Source: an uncultured Prevotella sp.
GTDB lineage: Bacteria > Bacteroidota > Bacteroidia > Bacteroidales > Bacteroidaceae
NCBI GenBank assembly: GCA_934190685.1
Contig: CAKPTK010000031.1
Location: 1 to 18,977, forward strand
Reading direction: 5' to 3'
DNA length: 18,977 nt
Shown: positions 1,110 to 18,977 of the stretch, in pieces
Layout: each line of letters opens with the position of its first letter
How positions within the stretch are numbered: the stretch's first letter is position 1
The notes under the pieces: generated by a model
Database searches by the model: none
What the model saw: the letters and a program-made list of their open reading frames with translations, nothing else
What the model was told of the DNA's origin: nothing
Program-made: the position numbers and the translations under genes

Positions 1110-1209
1110 GACCGTTTAGTATTTGTAAAAATAAAATAGGAATCATTCACTATATTTTTAACATTTTGGAACTTTAAAGAAATTGCAATCTCATAAAATT
1201 TATAAAAGT

Positions 1210-1656
1210 ATGAAATACATAGTTTATCTTTTTTATATTATTGCCAAATATGAATACTGGTCATTCCACATATTTGACAATATTGGATTTACAGGCGGTA
1301 ATGACAAAAAGATGAGGAGCGAAAGAATTTTAAACAACGCCACCAATCGCTACACACAGATGGCTTATAAAGGAGGAGAGCTCGCTTATTTTAGTTGTAT
1401 CCTTATGTTTCTATACAAATTGGGTTACAAACAAGTGGAACTATTATTTTCGAATGTGGTCACCTTGGGAGTCGCTTTCGCATTATTCTCAATACCGTTA
1501 GAATATTTTCTACTGTATAAAGATGATAGGCTCAAGAAATACTCGGCAGAGTTTGCACAGTTCTCATCCAAACAGAAATTCAAATACGGCACGGTGGCGC
1601 TGGTGCTGTTCCTTCTTCCCATAGTGACGCTCATAATTGAGTTTGTCTGTTTTTAA
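1210..1656 (+). CDS. Small multi-spanning membrane protein, candidate immunity protein
   Basis: I do not recognise the family. From the ATG at 1210 the protein has 148 residues. From the in-frame ATG at 1312 (MRSERILNN) it has 114, and that shorter start is also reasonable because the extra N-terminus is low-complexity and AT-driven. An in-frame TTG at 1183 is a third, less likely option. Three hydrophobic stretches are visible: GELAYFSCILMFLYKLGY, an EL-to-EYFLLY stretch around VVTLGVAFALFSIPL, and a C-terminal one around GTVALVLFLLPIVTLII. A charged KDDRLKKYSAEFAQFSSKQK loop lies between the last two. It follows the Rhs tip by 100 nt on the same strand, where cognate immunity genes usually sit, and small multi-helix membrane proteins commonly protect against pore-forming toxins. 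The immunity role rests on position and topology only. Confidence 0.5.
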   Translation: MKYIVYLFYIIAKYEYWSFHIFDNIGFTGGNDKKMRSERILNNATNRYTQMAYKGGELAYFSCILMFLYKLGYKQVELLFSNVVTLGVAFALFSIPLEYFLLYKDDRLKKYSAEFAQFSSKQKFKYGTVALVLFLLPIVTLIIEFVCF

Positions 1657-2478: not shown

Positions 2479-5100
2479 ATGATGACAGCAAACGAAATCC
2501 GTGACTCTTTCAAAAAGTTTTTTGAGTCAAAGGGACACGTCATCGTACCGTCAGCCCCGATGGTTATCAAGGACGACCCTACGTTGATGTTCACTAACGC
2601 CGGAATGAACCAGTGGAAGGACATTATCCTCGGCACACGCGACCCCGAGCCGCGCCGCCGCGCCGACACTCAGAAATGCCTCCGCGTGAGCGGCAAGCAC
2701 AACGACCTTGAGGAGGTGGGACACGACACCTACCACCACACCATGTTCGAGATGCTCGGCAACTGGAGCTTCGGCGACTACTTCAAGGAGGGCGCCATCG
2801 ACTACGCCTGGGAGTATCTGGTGGACGTGTTGCACCTCAACCCCGAAGACCTCTACGTGACCGTGTTCGAGGGTTCCAAGGAGGAAGGTCTTGCCCGTGA
2901 CGACGAGGCTGCATCATACTGGGCCAAGCACGTGCCCGCCGACCATATCATCAACGGCAACAAGCACGACAACTTCTGGGAGATGGGCGACACGGGTCCA
3001 TGCGGTCCCTGCTCAGAAATCCACCTCGACTCCCGCACCCCCGAGGAGAAGGCCAAGGTGCCGGGCCGCGAGCTGGTCAACATGGACGACCCGCAGGTCA
3101 TCGAAATCTGGAACATCGTGTTCATGCAGTTCAACCGCAAGGCTGACGGCTCGCTCGAGCCACTGTCGATGAACGTCATCGATACCGGCATGGGATTCGA
3201 GCGTCTGGTGCGCGCCATGCAAGGCAAGCACTCCAACTACGACACCGACATCTTCCAGCCCATCATCAAGGAAATCTGCGCCCTCTCGGGCAAGGAATAC
3301 GGCAAGGACGAGAAGACCGACGTTGCCATGCGTGTCTGTGCAGACCACCTGCGCGCCGTGGCATTCTCCATCGCCGACGGCCAGTTGCCCAGCAACGCCA
3401 AGGCTGGTTATGTGATCCGCCGTATCCTCCGACGTGCCGTGCGCTATGCCTATACCTTCCTCGGACAGAAGGAAGCCTTCATGTACAAGCTCGTTCCCGT
3501 GCTCGTGAGAGAGATGGGCGAAGCCTATCCCGAGCTGAAGGCACAGCAGGAACTCATCACCCGCGTGATGATGGAAGAGGAGGACTCCTTCCTCCGCACC
3601 CTGGAGAAGGGCATCAACCTGCTCTCCGCCGCCATGGACGAGCTCAAGGCACAGGGCAAGAACACACTCGACGGTGTGCAGGCATTCCGCCTCTTCGACA
3701 CCTTCGGATTCCCGCTCGACTTGACGGAGCTGATCTGCCGCGAGAACGGATTCACGGTGGACGAGAAGCAGTTTGACGAGGAAATGCAGAAACAGAAAGA
3801 GCGTGCCCGCAACGCCGCCCAGGTGGAAAACAGCGACTGGGTGGAGCTTCGCGAGGGCGAGCAACAGTTCGTGGGCTACGACTATACAGAATATGAGTGC
3901 CACATCCTGCGCTACCGCAAGGTGACCCAGAAGAAGAACGTGTTCTACGAGATCGTGCTCGACAACACACCGTTCTACGGAGAAATGGGTGGCCAGGTAG
4001 GCGACACGGGCGTGCTCGTCAGCGAGAACGAAACCGTGGAAGTGGTGGACACCAAGCGCGAGAACAACCAGAGCATCCACATCGTGAAGAAGATGCCCGA
4101 GCATCCCGAGGCCGACTTCATGGCTTGTGTGGACACCGACAAGCGCGACGCCAGCGCCGCCAACCACACGGCGACCCACTTGCTCGACTATGCCTTGAAG
4201 CAGGTGCTGGGCGACCATGTGGAGCAGAAGGGAAGCTACGTGTCTGCCGACACGCTGCGTTTCGACTTCTCCCACTTCCAGAAGGTGACCGACGAGGAGC
4301 TTCGCAAGGTGGAGCGCATGGTCAACGAGATGATTCGTGCCGACTATCCGCTCGACGAGCACCGCGACACACCGATCGAGGAAGCCAAGAAGCTCGGTGC
4401 CGTGGCACTGTTCGGCGAGAAATACGGCGACAAGGTGCGCGTGGTGCGCTTCGGTCCGTCGGCAGAGTTCTGTGGCGGTATCCACGCCAAGAGCACCGGA
4501 CGCATCGGCATGCTGAAGATTGTCAGCGAGAGCAGTGTGGCTGCCGGCATCCGCCGTATCGAGGCTCTCACCGGCAAGCAGTGCGAGGAGGCCCTCTATG
4601 CTTTGGAGGACACCATGCGCGGCATTCGCGAGCTCTTCAACAACGCCAAGGACTTGAAGAGTGTCATCGCCAAGTATATCGACGAGCACGAGAGCATGAA
4701 GAAGAGCATCGAGAAGTTTGAGGCACAGGCTGTGGAGCGTACCAAGAACGTGCTTCTCGAGAAGGCACAGGACGTGAACGGCGTGAAGGTCATCAAAGCG
4801 GTGCTGCCGCTCAAGCCACAGGCTGCCAAGGACCTCGTGTTCAAGTTGCGCGAGGCAGTGCCCGAGAACCTGTTCGCGGTCATCGGCACCAATGCCGACC
4901 AAAAGCCATTGCTCAGCGTGATGATCAGCGACGACCTCGTGAAGGAGCGTCAGCTCAACGCCGGCAAGATGGTGCGCGAGGCTGCCAAACTGATCCAGGG
5001 CGGCGGTGGCGGCCAGCCCCTCTACGCTTCTGCCGGAGGCAAGAACGTTGACGGCCTATCCGCAGCCGTAGACAAGCTCGTGGAACTCGCCAACCTGTAA
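2479..5100 (+). CDS. alaS: Alanine--tRNA ligase (873 aa)
   Basis: The enzyme attaches alanine to tRNA-Ala in the cytoplasm and hydrolyses mischarged Ser/Gly-tRNA-Ala. All parts are present and the length matches the bacterial enzyme (E. coli 876 aa). The N-terminal class II catalytic core has the motif 2 region [20 protein letters not shown] and the motif 3 sequence GMGFERLV. The editing domain has the zinc-binding HTATH (H563, H567) and CGGIH (C665, H669). The C-terminal DHHA1 domain ends in a glycine-rich [16 protein letters not shown] segment. ATG 2479 and ATG 2482 are adjacent; either may be used. The longer open frame starting at a TTG (2410) overlaps the -7 box and is rejected. The gene is monocistronic with its own promoter and a strong terminator. 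Confidence 0.97.
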
Positions 5101-5120
5101 TTCCGCAAAGATATTTCCAT

Positions 5121-5165
5121 ATAGAAAGGGCTGCGCTCGATTGAGCGCAGCCCTTTCTATTTTCC
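5121..5165 (+). terminator. alaS terminator, 18-bp perfect stem
   Basis: Stem 5121-5138 pairs perfectly with 5143-5160 around a GATT loop, with a G/C-rich centre (GGGCTGCGCTC) and a T-rich tail (CTATTTTCCTT) 21 bp after the alaS stop. The A-rich left flank could let it also act from the other side, though fumarase has its own terminator. Confidence 0.85.
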
Positions 5166-5256
5166 TTAAACAATCGTTTGACTATCTATTTTTCCGCGTC
5201 ATATCCCGACAAGCAAGCGGAGGACGACGGCTCACTTTACTATTCACGATGACGAC

Positions 5257-5305
5257 AAAAAAAGGCTCCCGTGCCTCACCTTGAAAAGGATTGACACGAG
5301 AGCCT
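5257..5305 (-). terminator. Fumarase gene terminator
   Basis: On the minus strand, AGGCTCTCGTG (5305-5295) pairs with CACGGGAGCCT (5273-5263) with one mismatch around a 21-nt loop, then runs into seven T residues (5263-5257). It lies 28 bp after the fumarase stop. This is a typical intrinsic terminator. Together with the alaS hairpin it separates two convergent transcripts. I see no gene in the 95 bp between the two hairpins. Confidence 0.8.
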
Positions 5306-5332
5306 CGCTGTGTGTTTATCGTTGATAATAGT

Positions 5333-6988
5333 TTATTTCATGCTGCAGGACGGGCACCATGGCTTCAACTGCTTGAAGAAGTCGTTGCCCTTGTCGTCCA
5401 CGAGGATGAAGGCCGGGAAGTCTTCCACACGGATTTTCCAGATGGCCTCCATGCCCAGTTCGGGATATTCCACGCATTCGATGCTCTTGATGCTGCTCTG
5501 CGAGAGCACGGCTGCCACACCGCCGATGGTGCCGAGATAGAAACCGCCGTGCTTCCGGCAAGCGTCGGTCACCACCTGTCCACGGTTGCCCTTGGCAATC
5601 ATCACCAAGGAACCTCCATGCTCCTGGAACTCGTCCACATAGGGGTCCATACGGTTGGCAGTGGTGGGTCCCATCGAACCGCAAGGATAGCCCTCCGGTG
5701 TCTTGGCAGGTCCGGCATAGAGAATCGGATGATCCTTGAAGTAGGCAGGCAAATCCTCGCCCGCGTCGAGACGAGCCTTGAGCTTGGCGTGCGCGATGTC
5801 GCGTGCCACGATGATGGTGCCCTTCAGGCTCACACGGGTGCTCACGGGATATTTGGTCAGTTCCTGGCGCACGGCGTCGATACCCTTGTCGAGGTCAATC
5901 TCAATGCCCTTGGCGCCTTCGCCCGGCTTGCGGTATTCCTCGGGGATAAGCTCGGAAGGATTGGAGTCGAGCTTTTCGAGCCAGATACCGTCCTTGTTGA
6001 TTTTCGCCTTGATGTTGCGGTCTGCCGAGCAGCTCACGCCCATGCCGATAGGACAGCTGGCACCGTGACGGGGCAGGCGGACCACCCGGATGTCGTGGGC
6101 GAGATACTTGCCGCCGAACTGTGCGCCGAGACCGATTTTCTGAGCCTCCTTGAGCAGTTTTTCCTCCAGGTCGAGGTCACGGAAAGCACGTCCGGTCTCG
6201 TCGCCCGAGGTGGGCAGGGAGTCGTAGTATTTGATGCTGGCGAGCTTGACCGTGAGAAGATTCTTCTCAGCGCTGGTGCCGCCGATGACGAAAGCGATGT
6301 GGTAAGGAGGACAAGCGGCTGTGCCGAGGCTCTTCATCTTCTCCACCAGGAACGGCAGCAAGGTGCCCTCGTTCTGGATGGTGGCCTTGGTCATGGGATA
6401 GAAATAGGTCTTGTTGGCCGATCCTCCACCCTTGGCGACCATGACAAAACGGTATTCGTCGCCTTCCACCGCCTCGATGTCTATCTGGGCGGGCAGGTTG
6501 CAGCGGGTGTTCACCTCGTCGTACATGGTGAGCGGGGCGTTCTGCGAATAGCGCAGGTTGTCCTGAGTATAGGTGTTGTAGACACCACGACTCAGCGCCT
6601 CCTCGTCCTCAAAGTCAGTCCACACACGCTGTCCCTTCTCGCCATGGATGATGGCGGTGCCGGTGTCCTGGCAGAAAGGCAGGATGCCCTTGACGGCCGT
6701 CTCGGCATTGCGCAGGAACTGCAGCGCTACATACTTGTCGTTCTCCGAAGCCTCGGGGTCTTTGAGAATCTTGGCTACTTGAAGATTGTGCTCACGGCGG
6801 AGCATGAACTCTACGTCGTGGAATGCCTGCTGTGAGAGCAGGGTCAGGGCCACGGGAGAGACTTTGAGGATCTGCTTGCCCTCAAACTCGCCCACCGACA
6901 CGCCTTCTTTCGACAGGAGATAATACTCAGTATGGTCCTCGCCCAACTGGAACATGGGAGCATACTTAAAGTCTGGTGTTGTTGCCAT
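5333..6988 (-). CDS. fumA: Class I fumarate hydratase, iron-sulfur (551 aa)
   Basis: It catalyses reversible hydration of fumarate to malate in the cytoplasm. In anaerobic Bacteroidota this step works mostly in the reductive direction, feeding fumarate to fumarate reductase. The single-chain layout and length match FumA/FumB-type enzymes (about 548 aa). The N-terminal domain contains FCQDTGTA (C106) and AACPPYH (C226). The next conserved cysteine is in GASCPIGMG (C312). These three are the [4Fe-4S] ligands expected for the family. The C-terminal domain has [14 protein letters not shown] and KGNRGQ. I chose the ATG at 6986-6988 ([11 protein letters not shown]); the open frame continues upstream through the promoter region. 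It is oxygen-sensitive by family. Whether fumA or fumB is the better symbol cannot be decided from the sequence. Confidence 0.95.
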
Positions 6989-7042
6989 AATGTTTTGCTT
7001 TTTATATATAACTATTATTTTATCGTCTGCTGAACGGCGATG

Positions 7043-7050
7043 CAAAGTTA
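7043..7050 (-). promoter_or_regulatory. Fumarase -7 box
   Basis: On the minus strand this reads TAACTTTG, followed by CA, and gives a leader of roughly 50 nt before the fumarase ATG. The expected TTTG 20 bp upstream is not convincing. Positions 6989-7242 are a 254-bp divergent control region shared with potA. No gene is supported inside it, and I see no riboswitch-like structure. Confidence 0.5.
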
Positions 7051-7188
7051 CTGCAAAAATCCGAGTAAGCGAAGAGATTGAAAGCATTATTTCCATTCTT
7101 GTCCGGCGAAGAGCCCGACAGAACATGACAAAGATGTGTCAAGCGGAGAAAAACACGACGGCTCCTGCCTTATATAACAATTTTTCCG

Positions 7189-7196
7189 TAACTTTG
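7189..7196 (+). promoter_or_regulatory. potA operon -7 box
   Basis: TAACTTTG followed by CA matches the Bacteroidota -7 element. The start of transcription should fall near 7203, only about 10 nt before the ATG at 7213 but about 40 nt before the ATG at 7243. This favours the second as the potA start. No clear -33 TTTG is present, so expression may be weak or activator-dependent. Confidence 0.5.
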
Positions 7197-7242
7197 CACT
7201 CGATTTTCAGCTATGCTGACCATAGACAACAAACAGGCAAGA

Positions 7243-8631
7243 ATGAACAAACAAGCACCACATATCATCGAAATCGCCAACGTGTCAAAACGTTTCGGCG
7301 AGAAGACCGCCCTCGGAGGCATCAACCTCTATGTGCGAAAGGGCGAATTCATGACCATCCTCGGGCCTTCGGGCTGCGGAAAGACCACGCTGCTCCGACT
7401 ACTCGCAGGATTCGAGACCGCCACCAGCGGCACCATCACCATCGGCGGAGAAGACGTGACCGATGTGCCGCCCTACCGCCGGCCGGTCAACACCGTGTTC
7501 CAGAAATACGCCCTCTTCCCCCACCTCAACGTGTTCGACAACATCGCCTTCGGACTGAAGCTCAAAGGCATGGGCAAGGAGGAAATCACACGCAAGGTGA
7601 AGAACGCCATGAAGATGGTGGACATGAGCGACTATGAATACCGCGACGTCAACTCACTCTCCGGCGGACAGCAGCAGCGCATCGCCATCGCCCGCGCCAT
7701 CGTCAACGAACCCGAGGTGCTCCTGCTCGACGAACCGCTCGCCGCCCTCGACCTGAAGATGCGCAAGGACATGCAGATAGAGTTGAAGGAAATGCACGAC
7801 CGACTGGGCATCACCTTCGTCTACGTCACCCACGACCAGGAGGAGGCGCTCACCCTGAGCGACACCATCGTGGTGATGAGCGCGGGAAAGATACAACAAA
7901 TCGGCACCCCGACAGACATCTACAACGAGCCTGCCAACGAGTTCGTGGCTGACTTCATCGGCGAGAGCAACATCCTCAACGGCACGATGATAGAAGACCA
8001 CCGCGTGAGGTTCTGCGGACGCGAGTTCGACTGTGTGGACGAAGGGTTCGGCAGGCAGCAGCCTGTCGACGTGGTGATTCGCCCCGAGGACATCGAGGTG
8101 AGCGCAGACCCCGCACAGGGACAACTCCAAGGACGCATCACGTCGAGCATCTTCAAAGGCGTGCACTACGAGATGCGCGTGGAGAGCGGCGCCTATGAGT
8201 TTGTCATCCAGAACTACAAGCACTTCGGCGTGGGAAAGGAAATAGGCATGAGCGTGACGCCGGAGGGCATACACATCATGCACAAGGAGCGCACGGAAAA
8301 CCGGCTCAAGGGCGTGATGCGCGACCGCGACGTGGTGGAATTCCTCGGCTGCGAGTTCCGCTGCCTCCGCTCCGACTTCAAGGAGGGCGACGAGGTGACG
8401 GTCAAGATACCGTTCGACCGCATCGAGCTGACCGACAACGAGGAGGACGGCATGATCAACGGCGACGTGAACTTCATCCTCTACAAGGGCGACCACTACC
8501 ACCTCACCGTGGGCACCGACTGGGGCGAGAACCTGTATGTAGACACCCAGGACGTGTGGGAGAACTCCGACCATGTGGGCATCAAGATCGCGCCGACAGC
8601 CATCTCGCTGGAGCCAAGAGACAAAGAATAG
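7243..8631 (+). CDS. potA: Polyamine ABC transporter ATP-binding protein PotA (462 aa)
   Basis: This is the ATPase of a spermidine/putrescine-type importer, acting at the inner face of the membrane with PotB and PotC. The nucleotide-binding domain is complete: Walker [10 protein letters not shown] (41-49), Q-loop Q87, signature LSGGQQQR (139-146), Walker B VLLLDEP (159-165), LAALD, and switch H197. The C-terminal part is longer than the usual family length of about 370 residues and seems to hold two related TOBE-like units. Unit one is about 254-348 ([23 protein letters not shown]). Unit two is about 364-458 ([24 protein letters not shown]). The start at 7243 (MNKQAPHII) is chosen over 7213 on promoter distance. 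It is first in the potABCD operon; potB starts 43 bp after its stop. Polyamine specificity is inferred from the operon. Confidence 0.92.
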
Positions 8632-8674
8632 ACAAAACATTATAAAGACATTGAAACAGACAAAGATAAGGAGA

Positions 8675-9448
8675 ATGTTCTCCTCGCGCAAGTCGTGGGC
8701 ACTGCCCTACGCCGTGTTCGCCGCCGTCTTCGTGGTGCTGCCCCTGCTGCTCATCGTGGTCTACGCCTTCACCGACGAGAACGGAGCGTTCACCCTGCAA
8801 AACTTCCAGAAGTTCCTCGCCCATCCCGAGGCCATCAACACCTTCATCTACTCCATCGGCATCGCCATCATCAACACCGCCGCATGCATCCTGCTGGGCT
8901 ATCCGGCCGCCTACATTCTTTCGCAGATGAAGTCGGGCTACGCCCAGACGGTCATCATGCTCTTCATCCTGCCCATGTGGGTGAACATCCTCGTGCGCAC
9001 ACTCGCCACCGTGGCACTGTTCGACTTCTTCAACCTGCCCCTGGGCGAGGGAGCACTCATCTTCGGCATGGTCTATAACTTCATCCCCTTCATGATCTAT
9101 CCCATCTACAACACCCTCTCGAAGATGGACCGCAGCTATATCGAGGCGGCACAAGACCTGGGCGCCACACCCTGGCAGGTGTTCTTCAAGACCATCCTTC
9201 CGCTCTCCATGCCCGGCGTGGCGAGCGGCATCCTCATGGTGTTCATGCCGACCATCTCGACCTTCGCCATCTCCGAACTGCTCACCATGAACAACATCAA
9301 GCTTTTCGGAACCACCATCCAGGAGAACATCAACAACTCGATGTGGAACTATGGAGCCGCCCTGTCGCTCATCATGCTCTTCCTCATCGGCGCCACCACC
9401 CTCTTCGCCTCTGACGAGGGACACGAGGAGAAAGGAGGCATCGTATGA
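8675..9448 (+). CDS. potB: Polyamine ABC transporter permease PotB (257 aa)
   Basis: One of the two inner-membrane permease subunits. About six hydrophobic helices are visible, starting with LPYAVFAAVFVVLPLLLIVV (residues 10-29). The cytoplasmic EAA loop that docks to PotA is clear: EAAQDLGATPWQVFF then LPLSMPG (157-181). The start ATG (8675) is preceded by AAGGAG, one of few strong Shine-Dalgarno sites here, and the open frame upstream overlaps potA, so the shorter start is preferred. The length is slightly below E. coli PotB. The stop overlaps the potC start by ATGA, indicating translational coupling. Confidence 0.93.
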   Translation: MFSSRKSWALPYAVFAAVFVVLPLLLIVVYAFTDENGAFTLQNFQKFLAHPEAINTFIYSIGIAIINTAACILLGYPAAYILSQMKSGYAQTVIMLFILPMWVNILVRTLATVALFDFFNLPLGEGALIFGMVYNFIPFMIYPIYNTLSKMDRSYIEAAQDLGATPWQVFFKTILPLSMPGVASGILMVFMPTISTFAISELLTMNNIKLFGTTIQENINNSMWNYGAALSLIMLFLIGATTLFASDEGHEEKGGIV

Positions 9449-10248
9449 TAAGGAAAACGCTCTGCCAAGGCTATCTGTGGCTGCTCCTGCTGCTGCTCTA
9501 CTCGCCCATCCTGATCATCGTCATCTGGTCGTTCACCGAGGCGAAGGTGATGGGCAACTGGACAGGTTTTTCCCTGCAACTCTACAGGAACCTCTTCGTG
9601 CAAGGCACCCACCATTCGCTGGTGAACGCCCTGGTCAACACGCTCACCATCGCCCTCATCACCGCCACCGTGTCCACCCTGCTGGGCAGCATCTCCGCCA
9701 TCGGCATCCACAATCTCCGGGGCAAGACACGGAAGGCCATCAGCTTTGTCAACGAGATACCCATCCTCAACGGTGACATCATCATCGGCATCTCGCTGTT
9801 CCTGCTCTTCATCTCCCTGGGCATCCACCAAGGCTACATGACCGTGGTGCTGGCGCACATCACGTTCTGCCTGCCCTACGTCATCCTCAGCGTCATGCCC
9901 CGACTCAAGCAGATGAACCCCAACCTCTACGAGGCGGCACTCGACCTGGGCGCCACACCCATGCAGGCACTGCGCAAGGTGATACTGCCGGAAATCCTGC
10001 CCGGCATGATCTCGGGATTCATGCTCTCCATCACCCTGTCCATCGACGACTTCGCCGTGACCATCTTCACCATCGGCAACGAGGGACTCGAGACGCTGTC
10101 CACCTTTATCTACGCCGACGCGCGCAAGGGCGGACTCACGCCGGAACTGCGTCCGCTCTCCGCCATCATCTTCGTCATCGTACTGATCATGCTCGTGGTC
10201 ATCAACCGACGCGCTGACCGCAAGAAGGAAGGAGGAACCAAGAAATGA
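9445..10248 (+). CDS. potC: Polyamine ABC transporter permease PotC (267 aa)
   Basis: Second permease subunit. It has a short cytoplasmic N-terminus, a first helix of nearly unbroken Leu/Ile (LWLLLLLLYSPILIIVIW, residues 11-28), and further helices near 61-85, 112-126, 132-152, 186-205 and 237-255. The EAA loop EAALDLGATPMQALRKV then LPEILPG (163-187) parallels that in PotB. Its start overlaps the potB stop and its stop overlaps the potD start, both by 4 nt, so the four genes form one coupled unit. The positively charged end RRADRKKEGGTKK fits a cytoplasmic C-terminus. Confidence 0.93.
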   Translation: MIRKTLCQGYLWLLLLLLYSPILIIVIWSFTEAKVMGNWTGFSLQLYRNLFVQGTHHSLVNALVNTLTIALITATVSTLLGSISAIGIHNLRGKTRKAISFVNEIPILNGDIIIGISLFLLFISLGIHQGYMTVVLAHITFCLPYVILSVMPRLKQMNPNLYEAALDLGATPMQALRKVILPEILPGMISGFMLSITLSIDDFAVTIFTIGNEGLETLSTFIYADARKGGLTPELRPLSAIIFVIVLIMLVVINRRADRKKEGGTKK

Positions 10249-11603
10249 TCCGTCTACTGAACAAACAACACTGGCTGCGCACCGTTCTGCTGGCGGCAGG
10301 CACACTCCTGCTCTGCGCCTGCTACAACCAAGAACCCCGGGAACAGGTGCTCAAGGTATACAACTGGGCGGACTATATCGACGAGGACGCCCTCGCCAAG
10401 TTCCCCGAATGGTATGAACAACAGACGGGCGAGAAGGTGAGAGTCATCTACCAGACGTTTGACATCAACGAGGTGATGCTCACCAAAATCGAGCGTGGAC
10501 ACGAGGACTTCGACGTGGTGTGCCCCTCGGAATACATCATCGAGCGCATGCTCCGCAAGAACCTGCTCCTGCCCATCGACACCACTTTCGGCAAGACACC
10601 CAACTATCTGCACAACGTGTCGCCCTACATCCGCCACGAACTCGACAAGACAAGCACGCGGGGACGCCTCGCCGAGCGTTATGCCGTGGGCTACATGTGG
10701 GGCACCTGCGGCATTCTCTACAACAAGAGCCGTGTGCCGCGTGCCGACGCCCTCACCTGGGGCACCCTGTGGAACAAACGCTATGCCAAGCAACTGCTCA
10801 TGAAAGACAGCTACCGCGATTCCTACGGAACGGCACTCATCTGGGCGCACAGGAAAGACCTGGCGGCAGGCAAGGTCAGCGTGGACCAACTGATGAACGA
10901 CTACTCGCCCGAGGCCGTGAAGACCGTGGAGCGGGAACTGAAACTGCTCAAGCCCAACATCGAGGGATGGGAAGCCGATTTCGGCAAGGAGACCATGACC
11001 AAGGGCAAGGCATCGCTCAACATGACCTGGAGCGGCGACGCCGTATGGGCCATCGAAGAGGCTGCCAATGTGGGTGTGGACCTGGGATACGAGGTGCCGC
11101 ACGAGGGCAGCAATGTGTGGTTTGACGGGTGGGTCATCCCGAAATATGCCAAGAACCGCAAGGCGGCAAGCTATTTTATCAACTACCTCTGCCGTCCAGA
11201 CATCGCCATCGCCAACATGGAGACCACAGGCTATGTGAGTTCGGTGGCCACACCCGAAGTGCTGGAAGCGATGACCGACCCGAAAGAAAAAGGAACCGTC
11301 AACGTGGCTTATTTCTTCGGAGGCGACACCCGCAAAGAACATCTCAACCCCATCATGTATCCCGACAGCACGGTCATCGCCCGCTGCGCCATGATTCACG
11401 ATGCGGGCGAACACACGCCGGAGGTGATTGACATGTGGTCAAAGGTGAAAGGCGACAACCTCGGCAGCGGTGTGGTCATCATCCTGCTCGGCACGGTGGC
11501 CGTGCTCACCCTGTTGGTGGGCTACCGCAAATACACCCGATACAAGCATCAGCGTCTCTCGCGACGCCACAGAAGACACCACGTCATCCGTCTGAAAAGA
11601 TAA
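10245..11603 (+). CDS. potD: Polyamine-binding lipoprotein PotD with C-terminal membrane anchor (452 aa)
   Basis: Extracytoplasmic substrate-binding subunit. The N-terminus (residues 1-26) is a lipoprotein signal ending LLLCAC, with C26 the likely lipidated cysteine. The mature domain starts LKVYNWADYIDEDAL and contains YAVGYMWGTCGILYNKSRV, MTWSGDAVWAIEEA and VWFDGWVIPKYAKN, all characteristic of the PotD/PotF family. The protein is about 100 residues longer than E. coli PotD. The added end has a hydrophobic helix (about 409-427, GVVIILLGTVAVLTLLVGY) and a 25-residue tail rich in Arg, Lys and His. So it appears anchored at both ends, with the tail probably in the cytoplasm near PotA. The doubly anchored topology is inferred. 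It is last in the operon. Confidence 0.9.
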   Translation: MIRLLNKQHWLRTVLLAAGTLLLCACYNQEPREQVLKVYNWADYIDEDALAKFPEWYEQQTGEKVRVIYQTFDINEVMLTKIERGHEDFDVVCPSEYIIERMLRKNLLLPIDTTFGKTPNYLHNVSPYIRHELDKTSTRGRLAERYAVGYMWGTCGILYNKSRVPRADALTWGTLWNKRYAKQLLMKDSYRDSYGTALIWAHRKDLAAGKVSVDQLMNDYSPEAVKTVERELKLLKPNIEGWEADFGKETMTKGKASLNMTWSGDAVWAIEEAANVGVDLGYEVPHEGSNVWFDGWVIPKYAKNRKAASYFINYLCRPDIAIANMETTGYVSSVATPEVLEAMTDPKEKGTVNVAYFFGGDTRKEHLNPIMYPDSTVIARCAMIHDAGEHTPEVIDMWSKVKGDNLGSGVVIILLGTVAVLTLLVGYRKYTRYKHQRLSRRHRRHHVIRLKR

Positions 11604-11655
11604 GCACACAGGCGCAACATTTGCACGATCATCACATAAGACAGACTGCACCCGG

Positions 11656-11688
11656 AAGAAGAAATAAAGGATTTTATTTCGTTCTTCT
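11656..11688 (+). terminator. Possible AT-rich hairpin after potD
   Basis: AGAAGAAATAAA pairs imperfectly with TTTATTTCGTTCTTCT across a short loop, with a 3-nt bulge, about 55 bp after the potD stop. It lacks a G/C-rich stem and a clean T-run, so a terminator role is weak. Positions 11604-11801 otherwise hold only promoter elements. Confidence 0.25.
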
Positions 11689-11693
11689 CCCGA

Positions 11694-11776
11694 TTTGCAC
11701 TATCTTTGCAGAAGATAGGCTGCACTCGGCAAATTGAAAGCAAGCTTTCTTTGCGCTCGTTTGCACTATCTTTGCA
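11694..11776 (+). promoter_or_regulatory. Duplicated promoter element for the GYF-dxs-trkAH operon
   Basis: The 17-bp sequence TTTGCACTATCTTTGCA occurs exactly twice, at 11694-11710 and 11760-11776. Each copy contains a -7 box TATCTTTG. The first copy has a near-consensus TTTC 20 bp upstream (11677-11680). A related CTGCACYCGG motif precedes each copy (from 11646 and 11720), so the whole promoter segment looks duplicated. A third TTTGCAC lies at 11620. The downstream copy places transcription start about 20 nt before the ATG at 11802. Confidence 0.6.
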
Positions 11777-11801
11777 AACTATATAAAAAGACAATACCGC
11801 T

Positions 11802-12569
11802 ATGAATTATTATATTTTTGTCAATAAGGAACAGCAAGGACCATATTCCTTGGAAGAACTGCGTAGCCGACACATCGCCTCCGACACCTTGGTCTGGAGG
11901 GAAGGCATGGAACAATGGATGCCGGCATGGCAAGTGGAAGATTTGCGACCGCTCTTTGAAAACGCACAACAAGCGCAAACCACACCACCACCCGTACAAC
12001 CCACCTTCGCCGGCAACACGCAGCAAGGCGAAGGCTTCGCCCAACAGAACACCAACAACTACACACCGCAACCGGAGCCACAACAGCCTCAGCCGAAACG
12101 CCCGGGCTGCAGCAAGGTGCTGCTCGGCGTGCTCGTTGTCATCGCCCTCATCCTGTTCACCCTCGCCGCCACCTGCCCGTCACGACAAGACCATGAGGAA
12201 GCCGTGAAGAAGGAGGTGAGCCGCCTCGTCGAGAAAGCCACGGAAGACAGTGGCAACGACTTATTCAGCACCTTCGGCAAGATGTTTGCCTCCGGACTGA
12301 CCAACCTCGCCGTGGAGCAGTTGCTCGACGTACACAACTACGTGCTGTGGTCTGTCGGCGAGGTACACTACGGGGGACACACCAAGAATGTGTCGTTCGG
12401 CATTCTCAACCACGTGTTCACCTTCGACGCCGACGATCTGGAAAGAGCCATGAAAGGCGACGTGAACATCCAAGAGTCGGAAGAGAGCTCCGACAACACC
12501 TCCACTGACGAGTCCAACTCCGGCAATGACGACAACAGTCAGGCTGAAGACACCGTCTCATACAACTAA
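11802..12569 (+). CDS. GYF_2-domain single-pass membrane protein (255 aa)
   Basis: The function is unknown. Residues 1-52 form a GYF_2 (DUF4339) domain: YYIFVNKEQQGPYSLEEL, then DTLVWREGMEQWMPA. This small fold usually binds proline-rich peptides. It is followed by a Pro/Gln/Asn-rich linker (53-100), one transmembrane helix (about 105-124, VLLGVLVVIALILFTLAA), and a C-terminal domain (about 130-222) with LLDVHNYVLWSVGEVHY and NVSFGILNHVFTFDADDL. The last 30 residues are Ser/Asp/Glu/Asn-rich and probably disordered. The C-terminal domain reminds me of small Bacteroidota proteins with an 'xSxG...VSFGxLGxVF' pattern, but I cannot name it. The gene starts the operon and ends 30 bp before dxs. It might scaffold a membrane complex. 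Confidence 0.8.
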   Translation: MNYYIFVNKEQQGPYSLEELRSRHIASDTLVWREGMEQWMPAWQVEDLRPLFENAQQAQTTPPPVQPTFAGNTQQGEGFAQQNTNNYTPQPEPQQPQPKRPGCSKVLLGVLVVIALILFTLAATCPSRQDHEEAVKKEVSRLVEKATEDSGNDLFSTFGKMFASGLTNLAVEQLLDVHNYVLWSVGEVHYGGHTKNVSFGILNHVFTFDADDLERAMKGDVNIQESEESSDNTSTDESNSGNDDNSQAEDTVSYN

Positions 12570-12599
12570 CACGACAAGCCACTAACCCGAAAAACGGAC

Positions 12600-14495
12600 A
12601 TGAAGAAAGACAATTTCGAATTGCTCAACCATATCAACAGTCCGGAAGACCTGAGGAAACTCTCGGTCGACCAACTGCCACAACTCTGCGACGAACTGCG
12701 CCGCGACATCGTGGACGAGCTGTCAGTCAATCCCGGACACCTGGCGTCGAGCCTCGGCGTGGTGGAAATCACCGTCGCCCTGCACTATGTATACGACACG
12801 CCGGACGACAGGATCGTGTGGGACGTGGGACACCAAGCCTACGGGCACAAGATTCTCACAGGACGACGCGACAAATTCTGCACCAACCGCAAACTGCACG
12901 GCATCCGCCCCTTCCCCTTTCCCGAGGAGAGCGAATACGACACGTTCACCTGCGGACACGCCTCCAACTCCATCTCGGCGGCACTCGGCATGGCTGTGGC
13001 AGCCAAGAAGACCGGACACGCCAACCGCCATGTGGTGGCAGTGATCGGCGACGGAGCCATGAGCGGCGGACTGGCGTTCGAGGGACTCAACAACGTGTCG
13101 CAGTCGCCCAACGACCTGCTCATCATCCTCAACGACAATAACATGAGCATCGACCGTGCCGTGGGCGGCATGGAGCAATATCTCCTCAACCTCGACACCA
13201 ACGAGACCTACAACAAGATCCGCTTCCGTGCCGCACAGTGGCTGCACGCCAAGGGACTGCTCAACGAAAACCGCAAGAAGGGCCTCATCCGGCTCAACAA
13301 CGCCATCAAGTCGGCACTGAGCCATCAGCAGAATGTGTTCGAAGGCATGAACATCCGCTACTTCGGACCTTTCAACGGCAACGACGTGCGCGAGGTGGTG
13401 AGACTGCTCCGGCAACTGAAGAACATGACCGGGCCTAAACTGCTCCATCTGCACACCGTCAAGGGAAAAGGCTACAAGCCCGCCGAGGAGAGCGCCACCA
13501 TCTGGCACGCTCCCGGAAAGTTCGACCCCGAGACCGGCGAGCGCATCATCAACCATACTGCCAACGAGCCCATGAAATATCAAGAGGTGTTCGGACAGAC
13601 CCTGCTCGAACTGGCGAAAGAGAACCCACGCATCGTGGGCGTCACGCCCGCCATGCCCACAGGCTGCTCGATGAACATCATGATGAAGGCGATGCCCGAC
13701 CGCGTGTTCGACGTGGGCATCGCCGAAGGGCATGCCGTCACCTTCTCGGGAGGCATGGCAAAAGACGGACTCCAACCGTTCTGCAACATCTACAGCGCCT
13801 TCTCACAACGCGCCTACGACAACATCATCCACGACGCGGCGATTCTGAGATTGCCCGTGGTGCTCTGTCTGGACCGTGCAGGACTGGTGGGCGAGGACGG
13901 CGCCACCCATCATGGAGCCTTCGACATGGCGTTTCTGCGCCCTATCCCCAACCTGACCATCGCCTCGCCGATGGATGAACATGAGTTGCGCCGACTGATG
14001 TACACCGCCCAACTGCCCGGCAAGGGCACCTTCGTCATCCGCTATCCACGCGGCAAAGGCGTGCTCGCCGACTGGCGTTGTCCGCTCGAGGAAGTGGCAG
14101 TGGGCACAGGACGCAAACTGCACGACGGCACCGACGTGGCCGTACTGACCATCGGCCCCATCGGCAACAACGTGGAAACCGTCATCAAGCAGCTCGAGGA
14201 GGAAGGCTCTCCCGTGAGCGTGGCCCACTACGACATGCGTTTCCTCAAACCGCTCGACGAGCATATCCTCGAGGAAGTGGCAAAGACCTGCAAGCGCATC
14301 GTCACCGTGGAGGACGGCGTGCGCAACGGTGGACTCGGCTCGGCTGTGCTCGAGTGGATGAGCGACCACGGACACGACATCCCCGTCAAGCGCATCGGAC
14401 TGCCCGACGCCTTCGTGGAACACGGCACCGTGGCACAACTGCGCGAAATCGTGGGCATGGACAATGAAAGTATAAAGAAAGCTATCGCACAATGA
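12600..14495 (+). CDS. dxs: 1-deoxy-D-xylulose-5-phosphate synthase (631 aa)
   Basis: It condenses pyruvate and glyceraldehyde-3-phosphate to DXP using thiamine diphosphate, the first step of the MEP pathway to isoprenoids. It is cytoplasmic and dimeric. Visible features are the N-terminal [10 protein letters not shown] (H47), the thiamine-binding [16 protein letters not shown] (from 150) with LNDNNMSI (177-184), the catalytic-glutamate segment [10 protein letters not shown] (E376), and [14 protein letters not shown]. The length is typical for the family. Many homologues have Gln after the catalytic Glu; here it is Gly, which I believe is common in this phylum. The stop overlaps the trkA start (ATGA), so translation is probably coupled. 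No separate promoter is visible. Confidence 0.96.
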
Positions 14496-15838
14496 AAATC
14501 ATCATAGCCGGGGCTTACGCCATCGGCACCTATCTCGCCAGACTGCTGGCACGCAACAACCAAGACATCGTCTTGATGGACAGCGACGAAGACCGACTGA
14601 GCAAAATCGGCAGCGAATGCGACCTGCTCACCATCGAGGCGTCGCCGTCGAGCATCCACGCCCTGAAACAAGCCGGGGCGGAAGACGCCGACTTGTTCAT
14701 CGCCGTCACTCCCGACCAAAGCCTCAACATGATTTCATGTGTGATCGCCAAGGGACTGGGAGCCAAGAAGACGGTCGCCAAGGTGGACAACTATGAATAT
14801 ATAGAGCCGTCGCAGACCGACTTCTTCAAGGGCATCGGTGTCAGCGCGCTCATCTACCCTGAAGACTTGGCAGCCAAGGACATCAACAACGGACTGAAGA
14901 TGAGTTGGGTGCGCCAGCGGTGGGACGTGCACGACGGAGCGCTTGTGATGCTCGGCATCAAGCTCCGCGAGTCGTGCGAAATCCTCAACCGTCCGCTCAA
15001 GGAACTCTGCGGGCCGCAAGACCCCTACCACGTGGTGGCCATCAAACGAGGCACCGAGACCATCATCCCCGGCGGTAACGACGAACTGAAAGTGTACGAC
15101 ATGGCCTACTTCATGACCACCCGCCAGTATATCCCCTACATCCGCAAGATTGTCGGCAAGGAACACTATGTCGACGTGAAGAACGTGATGGTGATGGGAG
15201 CCGGCGAGACGGCACTGCGGGCCGTGCAGACCATGCCCGAATACATGACCGTGAAAATCATCGAGAAAGACGAGCGGCGCTGCGACTATCTGAGTGACGT
15301 CATCAGCGACAGCCACGATGTGATGATCATCAACGGCGACGGACGCGACCTCGGACTGCTCCTCGAGGAGGGCATCCACAACACGCAGGCCTTCGTGGCC
15401 CTGACCGAGAATGCGGAGACCAACATCCTCGCCTGTCTCACCGCCAAGCGCATGGGCGTGCGCAAGACCGTGGCCATGGTCGAGAACGTGGACTATGTGA
15501 GCATGGCGGAGAGCCTCGACATCGGCACCATCATCAACAAGAAGGCCATCGCCGCCAGCTATATCTACCAGATGATGCTCGACGCCAACGTGGAGAACGT
15601 GCGGTTCCTGATGACCGCCAACGCCGATGTGGCGGAGTTCATCCCTGTGGTAGGCTCAAAGGTGACCCTGAAACCCGTGAAAGATCTCGGGCTGCCCATC
15701 GGCATGACCATCGGCGGACTGGTGAGAGACGGCAAGGGAATGCTCGTGTCGGGTAACACGCAGATAGAGCCGGGCGACTCCGTGACCGTCTTCTGCCACA
15801 ATATCAACATGAAAAAGATTGAGAAATTCTTCATATAA
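14492..15838 (+). CDS. trkA: Trk potassium uptake regulatory subunit TrkA (448 aa)
   Basis: Cytoplasmic NAD(H)/nucleotide-binding gating ring of the Trk K+ system. It has the usual tandem layout: RCK-N (about 1-120), RCK-C (about 140-215), RCK-N (about 231-350) and RCK-C (about 365-448). The first Rossmann strand reads [10 protein letters not shown] (3-12) with acidic D30 closing the second strand. The middle Gly of GxGxxG is Tyr here. The second copy reads [13 protein letters not shown] (233-245), retaining the first two glycines but not the third. Both sites are thus slightly non-canonical; the first may be normal for Bacteroidota. The length matches E. coli TrkA (458 aa). trkH follows after 15 bp. 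Confidence 0.93.
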
Positions 15839-15853
15839 CCCGCACTGCGAAAG

Positions 15854-17308
15854 ATGTTCAACGAAAAAATCATACTGAAAGTCATCGGCTCACTGCTCGG
15901 CATCGAGGCGTCTTTCATGCTGTTGTGCCTGCTCATCTCGCTTTACTACGGCGAGAACGACATACTGGCGTTCATCATCTCCCTGGTGGTGACGGCAGGT
16001 GTGGCGGCACTGCTGCGCTTCATGGGACGCAACGCGGACAACACCATGGGACGGCGCGACGCCTATCTCGTAGTGACGCTGACCTGGACGTGCTTCACGC
16101 TCTTCGGCACCATGCCCTTTCTCATCAGCGGCTACATCGACAATTTCACCGACGCCTTCTTCGAGATGATGTCGGGTTTCACCACTACAGGTGCCACCAT
16201 CATCGACGATGTGGAGCGGCTGCCCCACGCCCTGTTGTTCTGGCGCTCGCTCTCGCAGTGGATCGGCGGACTGGGAATCGTGTTCTTCACCATCGCCCTG
16301 CTGCCCTCGCTGGTGGGCGGGTCCGTGCGTGTCTTCGCCGCAGAGGCCACCGGTCCCATCAAGACCAAGTTGCATCCCCGACTGAGCACCAGCGCCAAGT
16401 CCATCTGGATGATCTATCTGCTCATCACCATCGCCTGCATCGTCTGTCTGCTCCTGGCGGGCATGAATGTGTTTGACAGTTTCAACTATTCCATGACCAC
16501 CGCCGCCACGGGAGGCTTCGCCACCCAGAATTCGAGCATCATGAAGCAGCCTGTGCTCATCGAGTATATCATCACGTTCTTCTGCTTCATGTCCGGCATC
16601 AACTTCACCTTGCTTTATACAGCGTTGTTCGGCAAGAAACTGAAAAGTTTGTTCAGCAATTCCGAGTGTCGCTTCTACTTCATCATTGTCGCCGTCTTCA
16701 CGCTCTTCATCATGTTCGAGCTGATGCACTACCGCAATTACAGTCTTGAGCACGCCTTCCGCAGCGGACTGTTCCAAGTGGTGTCGTTCATCACCACCAC
16801 CGGTCTCTTCAACGACGACGCCGGTCAATGGCCACACGTGACCTGGATTATCCTTGCCATATGCATGTTCATCGGCGCCTGCTCAGGCTCCACGAGTGGA
16901 GGTTTCAAGTGCATCCGTGGCTTGATGTTGCTCAAGGGCGTGAGAAACGAATTCAAGCAGATGCTCCATCCCAATGCCGTGTTGCCGCTGAAGATTGACG
17001 GTGTGAACGTGCCGCAGTCGAAGCGCGTCACGTTGTTGGCGTTCCTCACGGTCTACCTCATCCTGTGCATCATCTGCTCGTTCACCATCACCGCCGCGGG
17101 CATTGACAGCACCAACGCCATCACCATCACACTCAGTGCCCTGGGCAATGTCGGTCCGACACTGGGCCTGGAGATTGGCCCCACGATGTCGTGGAGCGTA
17201 CTGCCTGACTTCGCCAAGTGGATCTGCGCCATACTGATGCTGATGGGACGTCTGGAAATCTTCACAATCCTCGTGATTTTCTCGCCCGCATTTTGGAAAA
17301 ACGTGTAG
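15854..17308 (+). CDS. trkH: Trk potassium uptake transmembrane protein TrkH (484 aa)
   Basis: Membrane channel subunit that takes up K+, gated by TrkA. The four pore-loop repeats are visible: SGFTTTGAT (107-115), TAATGGFAT (216-224), SFITTTGLF (311-319) and SALGNVGPTLG (428-438). Each contains the single filter glycine of the SKT family. ACSGSTSGGFKCIR (342-355) and the C-terminal LMGRLEIFTILVIFSP are also typical. The length matches TrkH/TrkG (about 483 aa). It is last in the operon, followed by strong hairpins. Confidence 0.95.
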   Translation: MFNEKIILKVIGSLLGIEASFMLLCLLISLYYGENDILAFIISLVVTAGVAALLRFMGRNADNTMGRRDAYLVVTLTWTCFTLFGTMPFLISGYIDNFTDAFFEMMSGFTTTGATIIDDVERLPHALLFWRSLSQWIGGLGIVFFTIALLPSLVGGSVRVFAAEATGPIKTKLHPRLSTSAKSIWMIYLLITIACIVCLLLAGMNVFDSFNYSMTTAATGGFATQNSSIMKQPVLIEYIITFFCFMSGINFTLLYTALFGKKLKSLFSNSECRFYFIIVAVFTLFIMFELMHYRNYSLEHAFRSGLFQVVSFITTTGLFNDDAGQWPHVTWIILAICMFIGACSGSTSGGFKCIRGLMLLKGVRNEFKQMLHPNAVLPLKIDGVNVPQSKRVTLLAFLTVYLILCIICSFTITAAGIDSTNAITITLSALGNVGPTLGLEIGPTMSWSVLPDFAKWICAILMLMGRLEIFTILVIFSPAFWKNV

Positions 17309-17337
17309 AAATCAGCAAGCGGTCCTATACAAAACAT

Positions 17338-17413
17338 GCGCCCTGCAGAAGCAAAAGATTCTTTTCACGGTCTATTGTCCGTGTCTTTTGTTTCCGCAGG
17401 GCGCGGTGTTTTA
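17338..17413 (+). terminator. Long compound hairpin terminating the trkH transcript
   Basis: The outer stem GCGCCCTGC (17338-17346) pairs perfectly with 17396-17404. Inside it, AAGCAAAAGA pairs with TCTTTTGTTT (one wobble) and ACGG with CCGT around a short loop. GGTGTTTTAT follows. The T-run is short, but the stem is strong and lies 29 bp after the trkH stop. Confidence 0.65.
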
Positions 17414-17419
17414 TCTCTT

Positions 17420-17471
17420 ACGCTCCGTCTGTTCCGTCCCGCACCATGTACGGGCGTAACAGACGGAGCGT
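17420..17471 (-). terminator. 14-bp hairpin abutting the DUF4435 gene stop
   Basis: ACGCTCCGTCTGTT (17420-17433) pairs perfectly with 17458-17471, and an inner CCCG/CGGG extends the stem. On the minus strand it begins two bases after the TGA of the DUF4435 gene. It lacks a T-run. Its convergence with the trkH hairpin suggests it insulates the two transcripts or protects the 3' end of the mRNA. Confidence 0.6.
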
Positions 17472-17472
17472 T

Positions 17473-18546
17473 TCAAGGTTGGGAAGCCTGATTGGTTCTT
17501 TCCCTCAAAGGCTCCCCACCTTCCCTTTCTCGTCCGAAGACATTCCCTTCCGAAGAGTCGCCGAAGAGCCGTTCCAGGTCATGGCAGAGCCGCTTGTAGG
17601 GTTCGCTGCGCTGATAGCCTGTATTCTTTTTGAGCATCTGCGTGATGTCTGCCAGACTGTGGGTGTAGCACGACATTTCGTTATGCTTCTGCACCGTGTG
17701 CGCCGCCTTGCTGTAGATTTCGTTCTCCCGCTCCCGGATGAGCAAGTCACAGATGCGCTTCAACATGGGAACCACCACATTGTCGAAGAGATGATGGCCC
17801 TGTATATATAAATAGGTGGTCTGGGGAGTCACGCCCAAAGCCTTGAGTTCCTCCTTCAATTTCAGCCAGCTCTCCTTGGCCTTGGGATGGGCACGCTGCA
17901 ACATCTGCACTTTGCGGCCCACCTTGTGGCGCACATGGGCAATCACCGCGTCAGGATTCTGGAGATTGAAATTGCCGGTCTCTATCACCCGGTTGAAGTC
18001 GGTCATGGTGAACTCTCCGTAGTGGGTGTTGCGATAGACCCAGATGTTCCACACGAAGAGAGGGAAGACAGCCTCGGAAAACTTGGTGAGATAGTCCACG
18101 AAATCGAACAAAGCGTGATCGTTGAGCGTCACCATCACACACACGTTGTGCAGGCTCGGCGCATAGCACTGATAGTTCTCGATGGCGTAGACATAGGTAT
18201 GGAAGACATAGCGGTTGTGGAGAATCTTCTCCGACACAGCGGTGGTGCCCTGGAGCAGATAGTCGTAGTCGGCGTCGACACAGGCTATCATATTGTCGCC
18301 CACCCGTTCCTCCAACAGATTCATGAGCACCTGTTTCTTGCCTTTGGTCAAGGTCAGGCGCGAGGGCAGCATCACCTCGAAATAGCGGTGTTCGTTTTCG
18401 AAGTCGCTGAGCACGGAGCGCCAGAAGAACACATCGTCATAGCTCTCCACGTATGCTACAATTTTCTGCCGCGCCGACTTCGAGTTGAGTTTGTTGGCAG
18501 CCTCGAAGTAAAGCGACGACAGGTTCTCGTTCAGTCGCCTGCTCAT
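17473..18546 (-). CDS. DUF4435 TOPRIM-like protein, AriB-like (357 aa)
   Basis: The N-terminal half has the marks of DUF4435, a TOPRIM-related fold: IVAYVESYDDVFFW (E34, D37, D38), IACVDADYDYLL (D91, D93, D95) and YAIENYQCY (E123). The acidic E and DxD residues are those expected to hold metal in TOPRIM nucleases. The C-terminal half is mainly helical with many charged residues. The last 30 or so residues (from GDSSEGNVFGRERE) look disordered. It starts 4 nt after the stop of an ABC-type AAA ATPase gene on the same strand. In the PARIS anti-phage system an ATPase (AriA) holds a DUF4435 TOPRIM nuclease (AriB) inactive until a phage anti-restriction protein is sensed. The pair matches by domain and order, but base composition is like the core genes around it, so a different resident role is possible. 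Confidence 0.8.
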   Translation of the reverse strand: MSRRLNENLSSLYFEAANKLNSKSARQKIVAYVESYDDVFFWRSVLSDFENEHRYFEVMLPSRLTLTKGKKQVLMNLLEERVGDNMIACVDADYDYLLQGTTAVSEKILHNRYVFHTYVYAIENYQCYAPSLHNVCVMVTLNDHALFDFVDYLTKFSEAVFPLFVWNIWVYRNTHYGEFTMTDFNRVIETGNFNLQNPDAVIAHVRHKVGRKVQMLQRAHPKAKESWLKLKEELKALGVTPQTTYLYIQGHHLFDNVVVPMLKRICDLLIRERENEIYSKAAHTVQKHNEMSCYTHSLADITQMLKKNTGYQRSEPYKRLCHDLERLFGDSSEGNVFGREREGGEPLRERTNQASQP

Positions 18547-18550
18547 AAGC

Positions 18551-18977
18551 CTATTCTTTTACAGTGATGTCGGTCACCTCGGTCACATGGTTCATCCATC
18601 CGTTCATGATCACCGCCGGCGAGTGGGTGGTGAGGATAATCTGCACATTCTCGTTGAGTTCCATGATGAGGTCGATGAGTTGTTTCTGCCAGTCGATGTG
18701 CAGGCTCACCTCCGGCTCGTCCATGAAGAGCACATAGGGAAGGTTGTCCTCCACCAGCACGGTGAGCAGGATGGCGAGAATCTGTTTCTCGCCGCTCGAC
18801 AACTGGTAGGGCTGGAGAGTCTCGCCCATTTGGGAGAACTTGATTTCGTTCTCGCTCCGGATCATCTTCTTGCCGGTCTCCTTGAAGAGCCGGTCGATGA
18901 TGTCCTGGAACTTCCGCTTGGGCTCGCTGATGCGCTGCGCCTTTTCCGCCGCGTCGGCACCACCCTCCTGCAAGACG
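18551..18977 (-). CDS. ABC-type AAA ATPase, C-terminal part, AriA-like (5' end outside window)
   Basis: Only the last 140 or so residues are in the window; the frame runs open off the end at 18977. Visible motifs are an ABC-type signature LSSGEKQILAILLTVL, Walker B YVLFMDEPEVSLH, and the switch histidine in IILTTHSPAVI. This is the C-terminal half of an AAA_15/AAA_21 ATPase, the class found in OLD-family nucleases, retrons and PARIS AriA. Walker A must lie beyond the window. It ends 4 nt before the DUF4435 start, and the two are surely cotranscribed. An ATPase from another two-gene system is possible until the N-terminus is seen. Confidence 0.8.
   Translation of the reverse strand, partial: VLQEGGADAAEKAQRISEPKRKFQDIIDRLFKETGKKMIRSENEIKFSQMGETLQPYQLSSGEKQILAILLTVLVEDNLPYVLFMDEPEVSLHIDWQKQLIDLIMELNENVQIILTTHSPAVIMNGWMNHVTEVTDITVKE

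Follow-up and report, generated by a model that had tools for sequence, protein, structure and literature searches.

An AriA-type ABC ATPase gene followed by a DUF4435 Toprim nuclease gene of the AriB type, the two components of the PARIS phage-defence system, lies at one end of an 18,977-nt stretch of DNA from an uncultured Prevotella sp. (contig CAKPTK010000031.1; the whole stretch is referred to below as the window). Comparison of sequences across genomes suggests that the pair became fixed before Bacteroides and Prevotella diverged, and that it has since been inherited mostly with the chromosome. The module is fixed and probably domesticated, and on balance we favour an ancient nuclease gated by a short AriA ATPase, with a role that is at least partly cellular.

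The GTDB family examined, that of H. marshii, holds both Bacteroides and Prevotella; that Bacteroides belongs to it follows from protein matches. A DUF4435 match was found in 389 of 398 family genomes, 386 of them, by table reading, with strong, core-type matches (E <1e-36); 339 genomes have one match and about 50 have two or three. The same domain was found in 41/198 genomes of an order-level sample (at least three of these being family members) and in 7/198 of a phylum-level sample, and a control immune domain, SMODS, was present in 8/199 genomes of the same family. With a profile of AriA, a match was obtained in 100 of 101 family genomes, and in 97 the score was at least 184 bits. AriA lies directly before AriB on the same strand in all 30 core pairs examined, with a gap of −23 to 217 nt when only ATG starts are considered. 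This set of 30 genomes, used for pairing and for trees, omits G323, whose DUF4435 frame is short, as well as G230 and G334, which have no DUF4435 copy other than an accessory one, and includes G001, G004 and G008. Among the close relatives (the best 80 of 214 in the genome collection, labelled Prevotellaceae, Prevotella-group genera, Bacteroidales and, once, ‘uncultured bacterium’), the ATPase is upstream of the nuclease in 80/80; Prevotellaceae locus counts given below are out of these 80.

In the window the pair is on the minus strand, ATPase gene first. Residue counts refer to 116 loci (108 after removal of L081–L088, repeats of eight genomes):

18551..18976, minus strand: AriA-type ABC ATPase, C-terminal 141 aa, frame open at the window end (AAA_21, PADLOC and PDB matches)
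18782..18802, minus strand: ABC signature LSSGEKQ (SSGE in 116/116 loci)
18698..18733, minus strand: Walker B and D-loop VLFMDEPEVSLH (D, E and loop H in 116/116 loci)
18617..18628, minus strand: switch region THSP (H in 116/116 loci)
18547..18550: intergenic gap of 4 nt between the ATPase and nuclease genes, from the open reading frame (ORF) coordinates
17473..18546, minus strand: DUF4435 Toprim nuclease gene, AriB type, 357 aa (PF14491 and PADLOC AriB)
18475..18546, minus strand: AriB residues 1–24, N-terminal arm RLxxNLxSxYxxAA, a putative AriA contact
18445..18447, minus strand: codon of E34, the Toprim glutamate (E in 116/116 loci)
18262..18276, minus strand: codons of D91-x-D93-x-D95, the Toprim DxD (three D in 116/116 loci)
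18172..18180, minus strand: codons of E123-N124-Y125 (E123 in 116/116 loci)

A preliminary description of this DNA had reported the gene order, the 4-nt gap and the motifs LSSGEKQ, MDEPEVSLH, THSP, E34, D91-x-D93-x-D95 and E123-N124-Y125, all of which are present. The kinship to AriA and AriB that it proposed is upheld by Pfam, PADLOC and predicted structures, and for the ATPase by a PDB match. The window ATPase matches AAA_21 at 76 bits (cut-off 27), is called AriA by PADLOC (5.5e-43) and finds AriA (8ux9_B) as its best PDB match (1.6e-10); the DUF4435 protein matches PF14491 at 202 bits (cut-off 27) and is called AriB by PADLOC (1.8e-68). Adjacent AAA_15/AAA_21 ATPase and DUF4435 genes above the Pfam cut-offs constitute the PARIS detection rule of Rousset et al. 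(PMC9122126), and this is the arrangement found here. Predicted structures match the AriA fold for the ATPase and the AriB fold for the effector.

Walker A and the rest of the ATPase's N-terminal half fall beyond the window and are supplied by orthologues of ∼272 aa (e.g. GVNGVGKST). The ABC residues are intact wherever covered, with S or T following the Walker lysine. Walker A is separated from the signature by 146–167 residues in all core AriA measured except two (117 and 97), and by 325–339 residues in 4/5 long AriA. The long-AriA subtype is our own division, defined by a spacing of ∼325 residues from Walker A to the signature, which relatives L186 and L187 exemplify; this spacing was not found in core AriA and, judged by it, the core ATPase is of the short AriA class. 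An unrelated ATPase neighbour is ruled out by the constant pairing in the family together with the AriA fold. As a separate observation, the AriA of loci L103 and L111 (genomes G030 and G063) is without most of the helical arm segment TELDWQLYQLQRRYLDYQVNIGN, keeps its ATPase motifs and is still paired with AriB; split matches were seen in G036 and G099.

In the nuclease, the six Toprim residues E34, D38, D91, D93, D95 and E123 are intact in 116/116 loci, and on these residues a dead nuclease is rejected. The N-terminal arm is seen in aligned AriA-paired copies, is mostly at pLDDT <50 in the predicted monomer model, and is proposed to be the contact to AriA. PARIS is further characterized by lysines equivalent to AriB K60/K64, which grip the anticodon loop; core AriB has an invariant K70 and a nearly invariant K71, which may or may not be their equivalents. 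Five loci from other Bacteroidales (L165–L169) encode ATPase–DUF4435 fusions of ∼515–525 aa; in these the counterparts of E34, D91, D93 and E123 are preserved, whereas those of D38 and D95 are not.

Tree comparisons point to vertical descent. AriB tree distances correlate with those of the marker AlaS at r 0.92 and AriA distances at r 0.79 (30 genomes; 0/2000 permutations as high), and AriB and AriA recover 14/19 and 13/19 of the well-supported AlaS splits, respectively. The Bacteroidota branch suggested earlier is borne out by the tree, in which the pair forms a Bacteroidales branch of its own. An alaS frame lies in the window 12 kb from the AriB gene, and of the 20 genomes in which a single contig carries both, 16 have AriB no more than ∼105 kb from alaS. 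Three of these 30 genomes also supply four accessory DUF4435 copies (L179–L182), all placed outside the core clade.

The neighbourhood is conserved, and in the window comprises:

15854..17308, plus strand: trkH, convergent neighbour of the pair (TrkH Pfam 220.7 bits)
12600..15838, plus strand: dxs and trkA, housekeeping context

Fixation, raised in the preliminary description for the position beside trkH across Prevotellaceae, holds and is wider, covering the Bacteroides/Prevotella family and extending to an orthologue in a sister family named Rikenellaceae by protein names; trkH, however, is a neighbour only in part, being present in the fetched flanks of 52/80 Prevotellaceae loci. A divergent EamA transporter precedes ariA in 30/80 Prevotellaceae loci and in 8/20 sampled family loci (in seven of the eight it is no further than 1.1 kb away, in the eighth 3.2 kb), an arrangement also present in B. 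finegoldii and P. massiliensis records. No copy of the core type came up when viral contigs and phages were scanned, and the plasmid collection yielded two, both of which look like chromosome pieces. These are PLSDB records labelled as plasmids: NZ_OY725943.1 (L161) has meaB, the EamA transporter and the core pair ordered as in other sampled Bacteroides-type genomes, and OY726067.1 (L162) has the same EamA-AriA-AriB order. Patchy presence and links to mobile elements, which are typical of PARIS without defining it, were not found for the core pair.

Conservation was compared in those Prevotellaceae loci, 35 of the 80, that have the complete set of five genes. Pairwise identity averaged 75.4 for AriA, 75.5 for Dxs, 71.5 for TrkA, 60.6 for AriB and 60.5 for TrkH. 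In four shared Prevotellaceae pairs the ratio of nonsynonymous to synonymous substitution rates (dN/dS) was 0.014–0.158 for AriA and AriB, within or slightly above the range of TrkH, TrkA and Dxs (0.034–0.113); in two Bacteroides pairs it was 0.046–0.080 for AriA/AriB, against 0.022–0.027 for AlaS. Only these six pairs are used, and all-pair medians (AriA 0.202, AriB 0.083, TrkA 0.204, Dxs 0.191, TrkH 0.128) were dropped because the near-saturated pairs differ between genes.

A DUF4435 match is absent from nine of the 398 family genomes; in addition, G230 and G334 have only a weak accessory-type match, and G013 is divergent. trkH is retained in 11/11 tested genomes lacking the core pair. Seven genomes without it, G230 and six of the nine, group in the AlaS tree as a single clade (support 1.0), which also holds Bacteroides sedimenti, the AlaS of G178 being 100% identical to that of B. 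sedimenti. B. graminisolvens and B. ihuae lie outside this clade, and for B. ihuae a DUF4435 match was reported among the control genomes. G052, G172 and G334 are separate from the B. sedimenti clade, and G148, without a full alaS match, is probably an incomplete genome. The pair can therefore be lost, and was mainly lost once.

An order-wide profile search gave nuclease scores of 511–538 bits in the family, 309–328 bits in a sister set and at most 180 bits in all others. The sister family, 98/100 genomes of which have the nuclease, was identified from a few named protein matches to Rikenellaceae or Tidjanibacter, the latter a genus of Rikenellaceae. A core-type AriA match lies beside the nuclease in 2/20 sister loci (G898 and G902) and was not found in the other 18 within 20-kb stretches covering ∼10 kb on each side of the nuclease, nor in ∼1.5 to 3 kb read in two further sister genomes. 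The catalytic residues are kept in the 20 sister nucleases (one row is without the first two residues, owing to start choice). Of the 18 unpaired copies, three retain the N-terminal arm and 14 have a shortened or substituted one; in the remaining copy the arm could not be read. In the topology of the tree, both paired loci nest inside the Rikenellaceae clade with unpaired lineages on either side, so that loss or relocation of AriA, with the nuclease left in place, probably happened on two or more occasions. It is unusual for a toxin to outlive its antitoxin, and a nuclease outlasting AriA points to a useful nuclease.

The genes around the sister nucleases include a SUI1-like factor (8/20 loci, L253 and related loci, in which the orphan nuclease is divergent to it), MnmG (3/20), a penicillin-binding protein (9/20), a semialdehyde dehydrogenase (9/20) and a protein of ∼985 aa with no Pfam match (10/20). 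These neighbours suggest that the locus is fixed but do not suggest what the nuclease does. Two tRNA genes were predicted beside the nucleases in the 20 loci, one without an assigned amino acid, and no pattern was seen.

In PARIS, AriB leaves the AriA hexamer upon a phage trigger such as Ocr, and its cleavage of tRNA brings about abortive infection. In E. coli PARIS, AriA hexamers hold AriB until a trigger releases it, and the released AriB dimer cuts tRNA with two metal ions (PMC12409363; PMC11455837). The core pair has the parts for this mechanism, with a sensed signal and a cut target that we infer. The short AriA-type ATPase would hold and gate the AriB-type Toprim nuclease, keeping it inactive, and a signal would release the AriB dimer, which might then cut RNA, most likely tRNA, and so slow translation. 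Less certainly, the module may serve a constant cellular purpose, for example as a translation or RNA-processing checkpoint and perhaps also against phage, rather than as a dispensable mobile immune system. A more specific proposal, which we hold tentatively and place a little short of even likelihood, is that a phage-defence nuclease has turned housekeeping enzyme and become a core gene of two dominant gut families. AriA would gate it in Bacteroides and Prevotella, whereas in most Rikenellaceae, in which the arm is mostly lost or replaced, it would work with no AriA next to it; its substrate would be endogenous RNA, and its role a control of translation or RNA maturation.

Several results weigh against a fixed cellular role, or against parts of the argument for it. 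The core pair is not essential everywhere, as the B. sedimenti clade (seven genomes) lives without it, and AriA may sit elsewhere in Rikenellaceae genomes, outside the ∼10 kb covered on each side. Five or six of the 19 well-supported AlaS splits are not recovered by AriB or AriA, the two Bacteroides pairs have a dN/dS for AriA/AriB roughly double the AlaS value or higher, and strong purifying selection also fits a core immune system having a conserved trigger. The AriA arm is shortened in 2/30 genomes (G030 and G063), and in G323 (L116) AriA is in place with a DUF4435 frame of only 242 aa, a truncation or an assembly error. The AriB fold match has 5.3 Å root-mean-square deviation and 8% identity, with a Foldseek-alone E value of 2.5e-3, and PDB sequence searches with AriB, alone and as a profile, gave no AriB match, so that it is fold, Pfam/PADLOC and motifs that carry the case for homology of the nuclease.

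The strongest rival is active core immunity, in which a true PARIS became fixed since it senses something common to gut Bacteroidales phages, and AriB release cuts tRNA and aborts infection. We find this credible, if on the unlikely side: the checkable PARIS parts are present and intact, small plasmids carry short-AriA relatives, viral contigs carry two AriA relatives, and PARIS is among the few lineage-bound, near-constant systems of Neisseria meningitidis (PMC9090908). Set against it are the near-universal vertical pattern across the family, an AriA as conserved as Dxs, the 18/20 Rikenellaceae nuclease loci without AriA nearby, and the patchiness of other DUF4435 copies in the same family (∼50/389 genomes with two or three matches). 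Addiction, whereby the pair is retained as a toxin–antitoxin because loss of AriA frees a toxic AriB, would account for the constant adjacent order in the 30 core pairs, but predicts the opposite of what most sampled Rikenellaceae exhibit, namely a nuclease kept with its residues and without AriA nearby; one Bacteroides clade also lives without the pair, and we consider addiction very improbable. Even less credible is an accessory PARIS acquired recently and placed beside housekeeping genes by chance, for which the PADLOC label PARIS speaks; this is contradicted by distribution, trees and neighbours, by the four tested accessory copies outside the core clade and by the lack of core copies in the viral contigs scanned. 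Recent acquisition or mobility is thus ruled out by distribution, agreement with AlaS, neighbourhood and the viral-contig scan.

The fixed, at least partly cellular module that we prefer accords with the earlier suggestion of an old, fixed and possibly domesticated one, which gains support from distribution, AlaS agreement, conservation, neighbourhood and the sister family. Defence genes are expected to come and go, and a PARIS-type pair in ∼97% of the sampled species of one of the main gut families, conserved like housekeeping genes, breaks that expectation. With such a pair, whether an immune nuclease was domesticated can be tested directly in Bacteroides, which is amenable to genetics. PARIS has been reported in 20% of human gut genomes, mainly Bacteroidales, in a published report; the core pair is a plausible explanation of this figure and, if the housekeeping reading is true, surveys counting the pair as PARIS would overstate gut phage immunity. 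No report of the pair as a Bacteroidaceae core gene was found among the titles and abstract starts listed in searches of the open-licence literature, and PARIS is not mentioned in the passages of PMC13356809 consulted.

By Pfam, the run around the pair includes a fumarate hydratase, a solute-binding protein, dxs, trkA and trkH, and the window covers the trkH side of the pair, the other flank lying beyond its end. GC content is 0.539 at 16501–18000, 0.55–0.60 from 3001 to 16500 and 0.38–0.47 in the first 3 kb. The AT-rich window start (38% GC) has ORFs at 45–1109 (plus strand) and 1183–1656 (plus strand, small), neither with a Pfam match; the former resembles, by a motif, the C-terminal end of an RHS-type protein.

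Among known systems, Septu and retron PtuA ATPases gave a lower match than AriA. The partner of Septu PtuA is an HNH nuclease; here the ATPase is partnered by a DUF4435 protein with the AriB fold and not by HNH, so the pair does not conform to Septu (PtuAB). RNase M5 is not known to have an ATPase partner. It is the Toprim maturase that the E. coli AriB active site is reported to resemble (PMC12409363). OLD-family systems, including archaeal Cran1, combine an ABC ATPase with Toprim as the core pair does, and Cran1 offers a precedent for a non-immune, essential cellular role of a related ATPase–nuclease (PMC12796447).

Pairs on small plasmids (Enterobacter, E. coli SE11/W, Klebsiella, Acinetobacter and Psychrobacter) likewise have a short AriA, an ATPase of 325–336 aa being followed by the DUF4435 gene in the four examined. 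They differ in being on plasmids, in falling outside the core clade and in an AriB 20–27% identical to that of the window where matched. L160 and the 5.3-kb plasmids of E. coli SE11, W and KO11FL carry AriA-AriB with a short AriA and ∼22% identity to core AriB. Viral contigs hold six weaker AriA relatives; L270 and L271, AriA relatives on viral contigs (37–41% identity), are probable mobile family members. Compared with PARIS of E. coli B185 (structures 8ux9 and 8v45–8v49), core AriA is ∼272 aa, whereas E. coli AriA is 464, and its Walker A-to-signature stretch is much shorter (as measured on long-AriA relatives). PARIS is present in 5.2% of genomes (PMC9122126), whereas the core pair is near-universal in one family.
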